Source of the DNA: Acanthochlamys bracteata
Taxonomy: Eukaryota > Streptophyta > Magnoliopsida > Pandanales > Velloziaceae
Direction of reading: 5' to 3'
DNA: 64,000 nucleotides
NCBI GenBank assembly: GCA_019914995.1
Contig: CM034130.1
Location: 9,858,001 to 9,922,000 of the forward strand
Positions 23,195-36,227 of this stretch are shown in pieces. Within the stretch, counting starts at the first letter, position 1, and every line of letters starts with the position of its first letter. The notes under the pieces are model-generated. The model did not search any database, was not told the origin of the DNA, and was given only the letters and a program-made list of their open reading frames with translations. The position numbers and the translations under genes were made by a program.

Positions 23195-24039
23195 TTGTAC
23201 TTTTTAGAATTTTTTAAAAGTTAAAAAATTTAAACTCATTTAAACAAATTTTTTATTCTAAAAAAGTTCATTTTAAAATCCCTCCTAAACTTTATTTTCA
23301 AAAATAATTACTACGATATTTGAAAAAATTAAAATTTAGAAAAACACAAATAAATTTATATCATAAAATTATTAAATGTATAATTTCAATTTCTTTAGCA
23401 TATCTTGTACACCATAAACAAACAAACTAATTAAACAATTTGTAGTTCTTTTAGCTTAAACACATACATTTAGCGAATTATATGGTTAGAGATGGCCATT
23501 GTATTACCATTTGGTAACAGAGGATATAATTTTTTATGGTAAAAAATATATGAAATATTTTATTCTGTAGAAATCGTCATAAGTAGTAGTATTTCTATAA
23601 TTTAAATCTTTTATATTTATTATTTTTTACACAATATAATCAATTACAAACAATATTATTTATAATTTACATAAATATTAAATAAATTATATAGTCAATC
23701 AAATAATATTGTATTATTCTAATTTTTCATATTTTTTAAAATACATAAATTTATTTTTATTTTATAATTAAATATTTTTGATCATGTTTGTTCACTTGTT
23801 AAGTTATCCTCAAAGTTCATAAAATTTAAACAAAAATATTCAAAATAAAAATTTCTTTTTCGGTAATGGATACACACATTTGAAATTTTGAAAGCATACA
23901 ATAAAAATATTTTGTCGCTTATATTTATTAATTTTGATCTACAATATTGACTAACAGACATTGAATAATTAAATACGCTCATTTACTGCTACAATTGAAG
24001 GAAAACTTTTAGATAGAGCCAAACATCAGTGAGGTTCAG
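23195..24039. repeat. Left arm of a long inverted repeat
   Basis: This arm matches, on the opposite strand, 28831-29765. Shared landmarks are TAATTAAACAATTTGTAGTTC, a GGCCATTGT..TTACCATTTGGTAACA block (about 23490-23520 versus 29363-29405) and TCACTTGTTAAGT near 23790. Divergence is considerable (many substitutions and small gaps). The arms enclose the MCTP fragment, the hairpin and the CACTA element. I could not fix the exact outer end; similarity fades in A/T sequence around 23150-23200. Confidence 0.7.
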
Positions 24040-24409: not shown

Positions 24410-24592
24410 TGGAAAATAAATCAGCGCTTCTTCTCCCCTAACAACTTCTTCTGTTAGTGGCCAGGAAGGCAGGGCAGTCTTCTTCTCCACTAACAACTTC
24501 TTCTATCTACACGAGCCTACTACTACTTGGCCGTCTTGATTGAGTCTTTCTTAACTGGCTAGGAACAATCTTATTACTTACTATCCCAAAAC
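24410..24592. other. Spacer between the MCTP fragment and the hairpin
   Basis: Contains a short repeated word, CTAACAACTTCTTCT, at about 24438 and 24498. No gene is seen. Confidence 0.3.
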
Positions 24593-25092
24593 AACAATGA
24601 AGAAATTTACACTTACAATCTTATTACTTATTGTTCTTTCTTCTGCAAACCTTACACTTACTCTCTTAGTAGAGAAGAAGACTCATCATGCTCTACAGAT
24701 AAAAACAACTACAACAAAAATCATAAAAAAGTTCTCATTTTGAAAATAATCTCAATATTTTTTATTTTATTTTCAAACGTTGTTGAAGTTTGTATACAGA
24801 TCGTCGGAAAAAATATACATTATTGGAGTTTTTTTGTGACGATAATCTCAATATAAAACTCCAACAACATATATTTTTTTCGACGATCGGTATATAAATT
24901 TCAACAACGCTCAAAAATAAAATAAAAAAGATTGAGATTGTTTTTAAGGCGAGAACTTTTTGTAATTTTTGATATCATTATTTTTCTCCGTAGAGCATGA
25001 TGAGTCTTCTTCTCCACTAACAAAGAAGGGTAGGGTTTGCAGAAGAAAAACAACAAGTAATAAGATTGCAAGTGTAAATTTTTTTATTGTTA
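24593..25092. repeat. 500 bp inverted duplication (hairpin)
   Basis: 24593-24835 and 24850-25092 are imperfect reverse complements. They match through AGACTCATCATGCTCTAC (about 24679-24697 against 24992-25010) and AAATTTACACTT (24603 against 25078). The loop, around 24835-24850, is short. Arms are similar but not identical, with several indels. A transcript through it would fold into a long stem. Confidence 0.8.
24597..24743 (+). pseudogene. Secreted-peptide-like 5' exon, left hairpin arm
   Basis: ATG-started frame of 48 codons: MKKFTLTILLLIVLSSANL is signal-peptide-like, followed by a Lys/Thr-rich tail to a TGA. The right arm carries a better-preserved version on the minus strand (25087 downwards). 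This copy appears frame-damaged beyond the signal-like part, because its tail differs from the other arm. Confidence 0.35.
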
Positions 25093-25130
25093 GTTTTTGA
25101 GTTTGATTTGGAATTAGAGTATATATAAGA
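24950..25130 (-). pseudogene. Secreted-peptide-like 5' exon with TATA box, right hairpin arm
   Basis: On the minus strand, a TATATATA box lies at about 25122-25130 and the frame starts at 25087. The first codon is ATA where the left arm has ATG. It then reads KKFTLAILLLVVFLLQTLP, FFVSGEEDSSCSTEK: a hydrophobic signal-like core, a plausible cleavage site after VSG, and an acidic start of a mature peptide with one Cys. It looks like the first exon and promoter of a small secreted protein gene. The family is not recognised. Confidence 0.4.
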
Positions 25131-25196
25131 GAAAATTACAATGCAGACTCACCAATTGCCACTCTTCAAATAATTCTCTTCTTCTCTTTAACCACT

Positions 25197-27602
25197 CACT
25201 ACTACAGAATTAGTCTTTACCGACCGAAAAAAAGAGTCGGTACTAATTAAAAAACAGTCGGTAATGCACTTTACCGACTGAAAAAGATGTAGTCGGCAAA
25301 CCGTCGGCAAAGTATTTACCGACTGAAGAAATAAAGCAGTCGGCAAATAACTGTTCAATGCCGACTATAATTATGTAGTCGGTAATTTATAAACTTACCT
25401 ACGGAAACTCTTAGTCGGTATATTTTTTTACATTACCGACTGAATGTGTTCAGTCGGCAATTGAACAAGTTTACTGACTAAAATCTTTTAGTCGGTAAAG
25501 CTTTCAATTACCATAGTGGTAGTTGGGAACTCATAACAACTCTCTGACCACAATAACAATAAAAATTATTTAAAAACCAATTTTATTAAAATACTTGAAG
25601 TTTTGGGACTGCTGTTATACCTCACGCCAGTTTTTTTTACACAAACTATAAATTTTTTGAACAAAATAAAATACATAGATAAACATATCCAATAAGAAAT
25701 AGATCGGGAGAACACAAATGTGATAGTTGTAACTTGCTTGCACAAGAAACGATCAAACAACCAGCATGAACTTCCTAGAAAGAACGTGACAAGAAAGAGA
25801 CGGACGAGCCTGTTGGCATCTACATCTGTTGTGTGCATATAATACTTGAACATTCGCGGAATGCGGAGAAGGCAAAGAGTTGCAAAGTGCAGCTTGAATA
25901 ACATTTGTAATCGGACCAGAGCGTGAACAATGACAAATACGGCGCTGTAGAGGAACAAGAAGGAAGGCATTGTGCTACCATAGTGCCAGTCAGGCGAGTA
26001 CAGCACGTACAGATAGAGCAGCATTTCCCAAACCATTGGTGTCTCATCACTCTGCTGCATTCTGAAACACCTATCAGAAGATATCAAAAGAACACGTAAA
26101 CGAATTCTATATATGTAAAAAAAAAAAAAAACAAACTATAGTCGGATAAGTGGTAACACAATGAGACAAGGTGAAAGTAGAGCAAGTCAATCGTGGCATG
26201 TTATTGCAAATCAACCTCATTAATCGGGGAAAAAACGTTATATGCAGGTATGGTAAAACACAAAATTCTAGGAACATTGGAAAGGGTATTATAGAACTCC
26301 GTAATAAATGAGGAATATTTGTAATTTTTCTCACACTAGTCTGTAGCTGTAACTGGTCCCCAGAAGCATGACATCACCGTCTCTTCCATCTTTGCAATCA
26401 GGAACTTCAGATTACAAGAGAAATCAAGACCAAATGTTCCAGTCTCTTAATATGTTTCCAAAGTACAAAAACACTACATAGTAATGATAGTATTGGCATA
26501 AGCAGCAACTTATACAACGACTACTTGTAATGAAAATAAATTTTGAGCAAAACATGGACACATAAAAAACATTTTCAGTCAAAACAAACATACTATATAT
26601 CTTTAAGATAATACCTTTCATATTTTTTCTCTTAATTTGTTTTCCTCTTATTTTGGCTCCTCAATCAGGTCTTGTTCTGCAGCAGCTGTTCGGAGAAGCA
26701 CTTATAGAAAGCCATACTCACCCTCACTACAGGGATCAGTGTGAAACTGGTTGCACCGTTTGGACATCAAAGAAAGAGATCATGATGTTTGAAGCATATT
26801 AGTAAGAGAGTTGGTGACACTTGCCATTTCTTGAGAGGAATTCTTCTAGCCTTTACCTTTTTCCTTTTGGTATTGTTCTTCCAGAAATGAAAGCAATTAA
26901 AAAGCATCACACTCTCTCTTCTTTTTGACATAAGGCCCTATTAATATGTTAATCATAACTAGTCGTCGTTAATTAAGTTAATTATTTTTGGACTATAGTC
27001 ACTATAATTGATCGAATGGAGAGAGAGAACGGCAGCACAACCTAATTGATTGAATTCGGGCTGCAGAATGAAAAAAAAGGATGTTGGCTGCGGCGAGAAT
27101 TGCTTACTTTCTTCGCCAGTCGGAGATTATACCTGCAGGAAAGGGTTGCCGGCGCCGGAGAAGGAAGCTAGGTTTTCGGAAACAGCCCGCGAAATCTCAA
27201 GATCAGTGGACCGGAGCTAGCAGAACGCGAAGCAACAACAGAACACCTGAAAAATTGAGAAAGATTTGGTAAACAACAGTCCGGGAGCTAGAATGAGGCG
27301 GAGCAATAGCAGAGGTGGGAGCTAGATGAGGGAGAGAAAACGACTGAGATTGGTTCACTCGGTTGATCATTAAGGTTGATTACCGACTGAATCAAACTTT
27401 AGTCGGTAAATCTAATAAACATTACCGACTAAATATCAAATAAGTCGGTGATATGTCCAATTTACCGACTAATATGTGTATCAGTCGGTAAACTAATCAG
27501 CTATACCGACTGATAAATTTTCAGTCGGTATATTATATTATTATCGATTCAAATTTGTTAGTCGGTAATTTTCAGTCGGTAATAATTATTTTTATAGTAG
27601 TG
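25197..27602. mobile_element. Non-autonomous CACTA transposon carrying ceramidase gene pieces
   Basis: The ends are CACTACTA (25197) and TAGTAGTG (27602), perfect inverted repeats, flanked on both sides by ACT (25194-25196 and 27603-27605), the 3 bp target duplication expected of CACTA elements. Both ends carry many sub-terminal repeats in the form ACCGACT..AGTCGGTA (25218-25500 and 27380-27585), the usual transposase-binding array. Total length is 2,406 bp. No transposase frame is visible, so it depends on a relative elsewhere. The interior holds fragments of an alkaline ceramidase gene plus unassigned sequence (26600-27370). Confidence 0.9.
25734..26389 (-). pseudogene. ACER: Alkaline ceramidase (ACER-type) fragments inside CACTA
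   Basis: Two pieces of a plant alkaline (phyto)ceramidase, a membrane enzyme that hydrolyses ceramides. An exon-1-like start at 26389 reads MEETVMSCFWGPVTAT and then hits a stop where the family continues. A central block from about 26056 to 25734 reads MQQSDETPMVWEMLLYLY, SPDWHY, and later CIPRM-like and HTTDV stretches to LLCKQ-like FLCKQ, followed by a GT donor. The exons between (the N-terminal catalytic region) and after (the His-containing C-terminus) are missing. It cannot make an active enzyme. Same-strand collinearity indicates capture from one gene, with loss in between. Confidence 0.85.
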
Positions 27603-28830
27603 ACTCCAAGTGGTATCGCCGCCGGAATTAGAATTCTTCTAATTATAACGACAACAGTTCGGTGGCACTTGAAGTTGAAGGCATTCTGAATTCTGCGGGG
27701 ACAGAATACTGATTTACTTGGCTCTTGTTGATCTGCTGGCTGCAGACTCTATGAATCGAAAGATTCAGTCCAAGAAAAGATTGCAACTAGCAACAAATGC
27801 ATCACTCCTGCTAGGAGCTGGTTTAATATCATTACTAGCCAAATGGGCTTAGACGTTATACTCTATGAAATGCTTTTAGTTCTTTTTTTTCCAGCTTTGT
27901 AATTTTTCTTTGTGCTTTTTGGTTTTTAAAATATAACTAGCTATATGATTATGGTTAGTGCACTGGGTGCTTTTGTTTTGAAAATACAACTACAACTATA
28001 TTGAATATGATTACTGCGCTGTCAACTATAATGAAAACCGAAAGGGAAACAAAGAGAAAAAAAAAAAAAAGGGAAGAAATAAATCAAATTTATTTTCAAG
28101 GTTTATTATCCTGCAAGTAGAACTTGACAACGTTTGTACATACGTAGTAGCTTAAAAACTCGGTCCAAAAAGATATTTATATCACAATAAATTAGATGTA
28201 ACTCAATAGTAATTTGATATATCCTTTCTTTTTTACAAAGTATTTCCAAGTATTATGAATATAAGCAAGTAAAAAATTTTATATTTATAATTTTATTATT
28301 TTTTAATATAAAATTTTAAATTTATTTTTCAAAATATAAAATAAGCTCTTTTAAAAAAATTATTTATTTTAATCATTACCAAATTGTTTTCTTAGTCCTT
28401 CATCCATTATTATTGTATGCACACCTTGACATCACTGTATATATTTTACAAACTTTTCTGTAAAAGACCCATCTGTTGAACCGAACAATCTTTCAATTTT
28501 GCTTTCATTTACTATAAATTAGATACTTTCATTCACTTTGTACATTTCATATTTACTTTCATTTACCGTCATCAATGCAATGAAGTAGATATTTCAACTA
28601 CAAATCAACGTGAAGTTGACACAAAAGACGATAAATTTCATAACCAATGGTCATTTTCTCAAGAAATTTTTCACGGTAAAAAAACGTTCATTATTATCTC
28701 CTTAAGTTTTTGGGCGTGCTCAAAAGTAAAAAATTTTCAAGGAAGGAAAATGTAAAGTGAATTAAACATCAGTGCAGACTGACCAATAGTCACTTTTCTA
28801 ATAATTTCTTCAAGAAAAAAACGTTTATTA
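27603..28830. other. Sequence inside the long inverted repeat, right of CACTA
   Basis: 27700-27852 (+) is a 50-codon open tail ending [15 protein letters not shown] with a hydrophobic C-terminus, possibly the last exon of some membrane protein; not recognised. Around 28640-28700 and 28783-28842 are two related copies of an ACCAAT-GTCA..-rich segment. A third relative sits just left of the CACTA element (about 25143-25183). The remainder is AT-rich. Confidence 0.35.
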
Positions 28831-29765
28831 TTATTACCTCGTTGATGATTAGCTCTAACTGAAAATTTTTCTTCAAATTATTATAACAGTAAATGAGTCT
28901 CCTAGTGTTTTAGTCTATAATATGGATCAAAGTTAATAAATATAAGAGACAAAATATTCTTATTGTGGGTTTTTAAGATTTTAAATTATTCTAAAAAATT
29001 TCATCAAGTGTGTATCTACTCCCTAAAAGAGATTTTTATTTTGAAAATTTTTATTTAAATTTTATGTATTTCGAGGATGACTTAACAAGTGATCGAGCAT
29101 GATAAAAATTATTTAGCTGTGAAACAAAAATAGATTTATGTATCTTAAAGAATATGAAAAATTAGAACCATACAACATTTTTTAATTAATTATTTGATTG
29201 ACTCTATAGTTTATTTATATATTTACAAAAAATATAGATAATATCGCTGGTAATTGATTATATTGTGTAAAAAATAATAAATATTATAGATTCAAGTTAT
29301 AGGAATACTACTACTCATGACGATCCCTTCAGAGTAAAATATTTCATATTTTCTTGACCATAAGAAATTGCGCCCTGTTACCAAATGGTAACACAATGGC
29401 CATCCTTAATCGTATATTTCACTAAATGCAAGTGTTTAAGCAAACTAAAATGTAGAACTACAAATTGTTTAATTAGCTTGTTTGTTTATGGTGTACAAGA
29501 TATGGTAAAGAAATTTAAAAATTATATATTTAATAATTTTATGACATAAATTTATTTTGTGCTTTCTAAATTGTAAATTTTTTATAATAGCGTAATAATT
29601 GGTTTTGAAAAAATAAAGGTTTAAAATGAGATGAAAAAGGTAATGAAACACAATATTTATGAGTGATTTTAAAAGGAACTTTTTTAGAATAAAAATATTT
29701 AAATTTTTTAAAAATTAATTTTATTTTTTATTTTAAAAATTTTCTAAAAAGTACACTCATTTTTC
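28831..29765. repeat. Right arm of the long inverted repeat
   Basis: Reverse-complement partner of 23195-24039; see that entry for landmarks. The inner boundary pairs TAGAGCTAATCATCAACGAGG (minus strand, near 28840-28860) with TAGAGCCAAACATCAGTGAGG (24015-24034). No transposase frame lies in either arm. Confidence 0.7.
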
Positions 29766-34890: not shown

Positions 34891-35920
34891 TTTCTGGATT
34901 CTTCTATGTTTTGTATTTCTAATTAATGGAACTTTTGTGTACATGTAACTGAGAGATTATACCTTACAGGGATTTGGATCGATTACTGCAGATACTTTTC
35001 CCTGGTTTGGCAGACCTGAACATGTATGCGCAATAATTCGAAAATCGAGCGAGGAAGAATTTAACTTAATCTAACGTAGACATTAATTGGTATTTAGTCA
35101 ATAGCAAACAATTTAGTAATTAATTGCTGTTGCCTAACGTACCTATATACAATAAGGTTCATGTACGTAGAGTGCAAAAACAGACTGAGCTAAACAGACC
35201 AGTCAGTGGTCCGATAAGTCGGTTAAGTTGCAGCTTACTGTTTGATCAACGGTTAACATTTTAATTATTAATTAAAAGTTAATTTTGAACTATTTTTAAC
35301 AAAAAAATAAATACTGATTGGATCAATTTAACTGTTTTATTTGATTGGGGCGAATCGATCTGATCTTTTCGTACTTGTATCTCTATACGTATGCACAAAA
35401 GTCAATTCTTTATAAATTAAAAACTTGTTGCGGTCAACACTTGCAATATTGTTCTAAACCCTTGTTTTTATAAGAGAATGTATAGCTGTCATTCTTCCAA
35501 ACTATTCATCGATGCAAACTACAATGTTGTTAATGTTTGTAATCTAAGCTAGATTTCCCTAAAATCTAGCGTTAAGTATAAATAAAAAAACTCGTATCTA
35601 CCTATATTCATAAAAATATAAAAACAGAATGTACACGTTGCGGTGCTGAACCTGCTAATGCCACTATCAGCTTACACGTATATACTTGTTTAAGTCATGA
35701 AGTTGATAACAATTTTGAACGTATTTTAAATATATATAATTGAATTTTATAAAACTAAATATTATAAAATAAAAATTTGATAAAAAATAAAATTCGATAG
35801 AAATAGAGTTTAGAATAACAATTAAAATAAATAAATAAAATTTAATATAAATATAAAAATAAAATTCGAAATGATAATTGAAATATGTAAACTCAATATT
35901 ATAAATAATGTAATCAAGGA
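34891..35920. other. Intergenic region
   Basis: AT-rich. About 35716-35890 resembles the interior and one end of the element at 12062-12297. No gene is visible. Confidence 0.45.
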
Positions 35921-36227
35921 CTGAGCAAATCAGTCGGTAAAATATATAATTCAGTCAGCATATACGATTACCGACTGAAAAAATGTGAGTCGGTAAATGA
36001 TCGGTAAACTAATCACCGACCAATATTTTATATCTGTCGGTAGTGTACAAACTGAAAGAATAGTCGATGAATACCGACCGGCATCATAGTCGGTATTTAG
36101 GTATAATAGTCGGTAAACGTATAGAAAATATCGACCATCTAGTATTCCGTCGGTATTGGACGAATTTAGCTACTACATGATTTCGGTTGATAAATTTCAG
36201 TCGGTAATGCTAATTATTGTAATAGTG
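35921..36227. mobile_element. Lone CACTA-type end
   Basis: An array of CAGTCGGTA and ACCGACT motifs of both orientations runs through about 310 bp and finishes at 36227 with GTAATAGTG, the complement of a CACTA end. No matching left end is seen at 35900-35930, so this is a truncated element or a rearranged terminus of the same superfamily as 25197-27602. Confidence 0.65.

Follow-up and report, generated by a model that had tools for sequence, protein, structure and literature searches.

A probable Pack-CACTA element carrying decayed alkaline ceramidase DNA, with an intact donor gene elsewhere in the genome

The stretch of DNA under study (the window; 64,000 nucleotides, C5:9858001-9922000) was compared with 195.5 Mb of genome sequence distributed over 557 contigs. 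Positions 25197-27602 of the window are occupied by a complete CACTA (En/Spm-type) element. Its terminal inverted repeats are CACTACTA on the left (25197-25204, plus strand) and TAGTAGTG on the right (27595-27602, plus strand), and the inverted ends matched at 80% over 35 nt, one flanking base counted in. Directly outside them stand two copies of ACT (25194-25196 and 27603-27605). The motif ACCGACT occurred 28 times in the 64-kb window, whereas 100 dinucleotide shuffles averaged 2.11 copies and never exceeded 6. Eighteen of these 28 copies fell inside the element, with eight exact copies in the left sub-terminal array (25235-25496) and ten in the right (27382-27580), on both strands. Ends starting with CACTA, a 3-bp duplication and sub-terminal repeats in both orientations place the element in the CACTA superfamily. 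The initial annotation had described a complete element here, with CACTA ends, an ACT duplication and dense sub-terminal arrays, and this description is correct to the base.

Transposon-derived sequence forms both outer parts of the element. The left segment (25197-25724, plus strand) is common to relatives that carry no ceramidase DNA, and in three of these (L011, L012 and L016) the match extends to 25736; the right segment covers 27018-27602 (plus strand). No transposase was found in the element, either in its longest frame, which is ceramidase, or in ten more frames of 56-88 aa searched against Pfam at E 0.1. Elsewhere in the window, a second cluster of ACCGACT-type repeats (35910-36227) terminates in TAATAGTG (36220-36227) and probably marks one terminus of a further CACTA element.

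The element splits a decayed ZIP-transporter-like exon. The left part of this target (25172-25196, plus strand) is recognisable through the PF02535 match of a relative on contig C10, and the right part (27603-27977, plus strand) is frameshifted. A genome search with the right flank led to an array on C10, and 11 of the 16 other matches started at the first base past the element. One unit of the C10 array was shown to encode a ZIP-transporter C-terminus (PF02535, E 1.1e-18). When the two flanks were joined with one ACT and aligned with two of the array units, the alignments (401 and 399 columns, 86.0 and 85.0% identity) ran unbroken through the join, the portion to the left of it being just 24-25 bp. 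A single ACT therefore stands at two paralogous empty sites, and the ACT duplication, on which the initial annotation had staked its reading, is real. The ZIP-transporter C-terminal units (L039 and C10:3.05-3.06 and 3.93-3.94 Mb) are arrayed at a spacing of ~1.07 kb. In the window, a large inverted repeat (23196-23954 and 28910-29755; 853 columns, 76.6% overall and locally up to 95%) surrounds the ZIP-like sequence together with the CACTA element, and its arms also match near the C10 ZIP arrays. A separate fold-back repeat (24588-25096, with arms at 24588-24839 and 24848-25096) lies immediately left of the target sequence, and copies of its right half occur on C10.

Between the two transposon-derived segments, two minus-strand frames matched the Pfam family PF05875 (E 1.4e-18 and 2e-7), the second scoring 31.1 bits, slightly below the curated cut-off of 32.5. 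Both belong to a single contiguous stretch of a ceramidase gene, comprising ~620 bp upstream of the ATG, exon 1, the intron and most of exon 2. In the order of the captured gene, and all on the minus strand, these are the upstream region (26390-27010, promoter and 5′ UTR unmapped), the first 123 nt of exon 1 (26267-26389), an intron remnant (26062-26266) and the 5′ part of exon 2 (25725-26061). The captured stretch is now 1.29 kb long and measured ~1.44 kb before a later deletion, which is seen at 26266/26267 as the absence of 157 bp of the donor (the end of exon 1, the 5′ splice site and the start of the intron). The initial annotation was thus right in recognising ceramidase in one orientation and in placing a start codon in one of its two pieces (ATG at 26389-26387), but the pieces are one capture that includes the intron and upstream DNA. 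As the intron and ~620 bp of upstream sequence were taken along with the exons, the cargo was copied from DNA; a retrocopy is ruled out by the retained intron.

The window copy is broken as a gene. Codon 18 of its exon 1 is a stop (TAG for TGG, 26338-26336), and this stop and the 157-bp loss, which removed the rest of exon 1 and the 5′ splice site, together lead us to reject a working chimeric gene at this site; the initial annotation had raised a chimeric transcript as a possibility. The residues corresponding to ACER3 Ser77, His81, Asp92, His217 and His221 are also incomplete. The exon-1 part carrying the Ser/His81 region is missing from the window copy, and the C-terminal His pair is absent from both the window copy and the related element L009. 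At present the window copy would therefore seem to be without a product.

We found four other places in the genome that match the ceramidase part: element L009, a gene on contig C15 (L010) and genes on C16 and C18. L010 (C15:240402-241873) matches element positions 529-1821 only, at 91.5 and 93.2% identity, and its sequence runs on past the exon-2 border to give a complete ACER gene (255 aa; PF05875, 210 bits). Its dN/dS against the C16 and C18 paralogues was 0.15 and 0.14, respectively. CACTA ends were not seen at this locus, where the 5,472 bases examined contained no CACTACTAC and one CCGACT/AGTCGG. Because the stretch matched by the capture continues there as an intact gene free of CACTA ends, L010 can be regarded as the donor or a sequence closely related to it. 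The C16 and C18 genes were rejected as immediate donors (73-82%, compared with 91.5-93.2% for the C15 gene). The genome search for a full ACER gene proposed in the initial annotation has thus identified an intact donor elsewhere in the same genome for the host ceramidase fragment it had inferred. The same source had held that ceramidase pieces lacking CACTA ends would count against capture. Such sequence does exist at L010, but as a full-length gene, and it therefore supports capture: host coding DNA lies inside the element and its parental locus lies outside any such element.

The element belongs to a wider family. Its left-end pattern, with up to three mismatches, was found at 51 places in the genome compared with none for a reversed control; this and the other copy counts are lower bounds, as the genome searches scored the best candidates only. 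Elements with the same ends, which the initial annotation had suggested looking for, include the sister copy L009 (C15:3350747-3353313), which has both capture junctions in common with the window element, and L011-L019, which show no ceramidase match. Exact 3-bp duplications flank nine of the 11 copies with both ends placed (window element, ACT; L009, ATC; L011, ACA; L012, GAA; L013, TCT; L015, ATT; L018, GGC; L019, ATT; an element on C9, ATT), and inexact ones flank L014 (CCT/CTT) and L017 (GTC/ATT). L016 stands outside this count, as its far end could not be located.

A genome search for Transposase_21 gave at least 153 matches (150 of 275 candidates scored). One lies in the 11,735-bp C9 element (C9:5933210-5944944, ATT/ATT duplication), which has a 478-aa open frame with a Transposase_21 match at E 8.3e-99. 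This element resembles the window element at the ends only (73.2% over 231 columns and 73.7% over 114 columns); its right end is GTACTAGTG, not TAGTAGTG, and its own two ends are imperfectly matched. Ends of this type therefore also enclose a transposase-encoding relative. No Pfam match above the cut-off was obtained for six frames taken from inside L012, L016 and L017. L016 (C6:3004-3010 kb) shares the left end and is longer; parts of its interior also occur in L011 and at C15:6.36 Mb.

These relatives bear on whether the CACTA ends have anything to do with the ceramidase DNA at all. The three intact ACER genes in the genome show that this family duplicates, and a ceramidase stretch that arose through retroposition or a segmental duplication could have come to lie between CACTA ends by chance. 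The retained intron argues against a retrocopy, however, and the elements on C5 and C15 have both junctions in common, ceramidase is absent from relatives with these ends, and the two cargo elements are flanked by different exact duplications (ACT in the window, ATC at L009). We consider the likelihood of a chance arrangement to be close to nil. The absence of a transposase inside the element, and the existence of relatives with the same ends that carry other cargo or none, are instead the marks of a Pack-CACTA element.

The borders of the captured DNA were examined for traces of how it was acquired. At the left junction (25725-25736), 10 of 12 bases are alike, and these include 5 bp of microhomology, AGTTG, identical in the donor and in the ceramidase-free L011, L012 and L016. 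At the right junction (27011-27017), donor sequence ending in TATAATTG is followed by the 7-nt stretch ATCGAAT (ATCGATT in L009) and then by element sequence. AATTG plus these 7 nt is similar to element sequence lying 37-38 bp deeper: AATTGATCGAAT is present at the corresponding inner place in L009, where it lies 37 bp on, and in L011. In the window itself the inner copy lies 38 bp on and differs by one base, so the match is 11/12 within each copy and 12/12 across copies only. In simulations, the probability that a random 7-mer following AATTG would be templated nearby was 0.0013. This and the other simulated chances given below are guides rather than strict tests, since the patch limits were taken as observed. 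The 7 nt can also be read as donor sequence (five of seven bases alike) with two transversions.

A second host gene was captured independently by part of the family. A host locus on C20 (1290893-1291596), lying within a 633-aa open frame, matches the interiors of L012-L015, with 96.0% identity over 749 columns for L012, and a paralogue of this gene occurs on C19 (77%). The frame had no match in a Pfam search. In the 3,001 bases examined at this locus (L042, C20:1289600-1292600), neither CACTACTAC nor CCGACT/AGTCGG was present. The left junction of L012 differs from that of L013, which is shared by L013-L015; as the right border appears to be shared in alignments, L013-L015 may be deletion derivatives. 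The left border of L012, the one copy with a patched left junction, reads element ACCAA, then AGGATAGATACTT, then CTTCCGGTAACT, then donor sequence. AGGATAGATACTT is a 13-bp donor patch with a single occurrence at the donor locus, 147 bp in from the start of the capture (chance 0.00015), and CTTCCGGTAACT is a 12-bp element patch present 83 bp upstream in the element (chance 0.0015).

Although junctions are few, the patches at the borders of both captures suggest template-switch copying in preference to fusion, a reading weakened slightly by the ceramidase patch matching at only 11/12 within each copy. The family may thus copy host genes repeatedly by microhomology-guided template switching, with several jumps between element and donor, and we would put this tentative view at a little under even odds. 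Its main competitor is the fusion of two neighbouring CACTA insertions flanking the ACER segment, whose inner ends are lost while the outer ends move together, as is proposed for Pack-CACTA and other Pack-TYPE elements (PMC8903248, PMC13317346). Fusion likewise yields transposon sequence outside and donor DNA inside, and a cut-out event at the donor could hide behind an intact homologous chromosome. However, the donor gene is unbroken at the exon-2 capture border and the examined sequence on both sides of it shows no element, the two donor loci together hold a single CCGACT/AGTCGG and no CACTACTAC, and the patch-like junction sequence in both captures fits copying better. Fusion is consequently a serious but rather unlikely explanation of these borders.

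The history of the cargo after its capture was followed through comparisons of divergence, as had also been proposed in the initial annotation. Cargo distances among the window element, L009 and the donor were nearly equal (0.0515, 0.0566 and 0.0522), indicating that the two elements separated soon after capture. The transposon ends of the window element and L009 differed by 0.080 and 0.082, above the divergence of their cargo, and the ratio of transitions to transversions between them was 72:11 in the ends and 45:18 in the cargo. Of the 61 cargo changes assigned to the element branches of the window copy and L009, 38 were GC>AT; for the donor branch the figure was five out of 29 (Fisher, p 9e-5), and the contrast had p 0.007 with all 29 donor-branch changes moved to the shared stem. 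When the C16 and C18 genes served as outgroups, 18 donor-branch columns from near the ATG onwards were divided into eight on the donor branch (two GC>AT), four on the stem (two GC>AT) and six ambiguous. The context of the 38 changes was CHG in 15, CHH in 21 and CG in two. This pattern may reflect methylation that affected the captured copies and spared the donor, although the scarcity of CG changes speaks against it and is unlike the usual methylation pattern.

Few changes were available for coding comparisons, which gave dN/dS values of 0.68 (window-donor), 1.08 (L009-donor) and 0.57 (window-L009). Non-synonymous and synonymous changes numbered 6:5 on the window branch, plus the stop, 8:3 on the L009 branch and 10:2 on the donor branch. 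Given this last ratio, short-term counts alone show no constraint on the donor, which becomes visible only against the older paralogues (0.14-0.15). Under the splicing inferred for the donor, L009 has a 227-aa open frame in which ~196 residues are ceramidase and the remainder is element-derived. The frame lacks HAWWH, which aligns with the ACER3 stretch containing His217 and His221; mutating His217/His221 is reported to abolish ACER3 activity (PMC9436119).

The captured ceramidase might have become a functional regulator of the C15 ACER gene, acting through small RNA or a truncated L009 protein. Exact copies of 21-mers from 2.5 kb of the donor locus were found in both elements (396 in the window element, 485 in L009), and the open frame of L009 offers a candidate protein. 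Against this, the window frame is broken, the L009 frame is without the His-containing stretch and has a dN/dS of 1.08 relative to the donor, and no inverted exon copy was present among the 25 longest of 50 inverted-repeat pairs. The donor branch also lacks the C>T excess expected from trans-methylation. The contrast in dN/dS, 0.57-1.08 for the captured copies and donor but 0.14-0.15 for the donor and its paralogues, likewise leans against a regulatory transcript. As the cargo leans to C>T and the donor does not, mutation patterns give no sign of a regulatory role, which is not favoured and which we hold to be improbable.

The CACTA ends, the donor, the shared junctions, the ceramidase-free relatives and the Transposase_21-encoding relative therefore identify the window element as a Pack-CACTA element, a known kind. 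We assign a probability of roughly 0.87 to the reading that an element without a transposase of its own had its interior replaced, by copying, with ACER DNA from C15 and that this DNA then decayed. The ends, the 3-bp duplication, the empty sites, the donor, the ceramidase-free relatives, the sister copy, the transposase-encoding relative and the decay of the cargo are all directly visible in the genome. Around them, the course of events would have been as follows. A contiguous piece of the donor may have been copied while an older element underwent repair or replication, through template switches at short homologies into the donor and back. The product would then have been moved by transposase supplied in trans and have multiplied soon after the capture, and its copies may afterwards have been silenced and methylated as transposons.

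Several described systems resemble this one. Pack-CACTA elements, as presented in PMC8903248, likewise have CACTA ends, a 3-bp duplication, no transposase and host coding DNA with a donor elsewhere; in contrast to that account, the borders here look more like template switching than neighbour fusion, and two unrelated captures occur within one family. Tgm-Express1 of soybean is also a CACTA element with intron-containing host gene fragments, but it is described as holding five of them, lying in the intron of an expressed gene and giving chimeric transcripts (PMC1947982), whereas the element here has one donor and a decayed ZIP-like target. Animal Pack-TIRs share breakpoint microhomology, explained by gap filling or template switching, yet 56.9% are reported within 15 kb of their parent (PMC8277862), unlike the two cargo copies here, one lying 3.1 Mb from the donor and the other on another contig. 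Transposase-encoding En/Spm (CACTA) elements are represented in the same genome by a relative with end sequence and sub-terminal repeats in common, and differ from the window element in that no transposase is detectable in the latter. Among the papers listed in a literature search on ceramidase and CACTA, no title or abstract opening pointed to such a capture.

The type of event is already known; its framing here is unusually complete and provides a modest new lead on the mechanism of capture. Comparing the mutation patterns of captured copies and their donors offers a sequence-only way to ask whether captured genes draw their donors into silencing, of which the small numbers in the present pattern give no sign. 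The way in which plant DNA transposons acquire genes is debated, and one genome here offers test material in the form of two donors, ceramidase-free relatives, junctions both common to several copies and peculiar to one, empty sites and a relative that encodes a transposase. Junctions of this kind can separate template-switch copying from the fusion of neighbouring elements.
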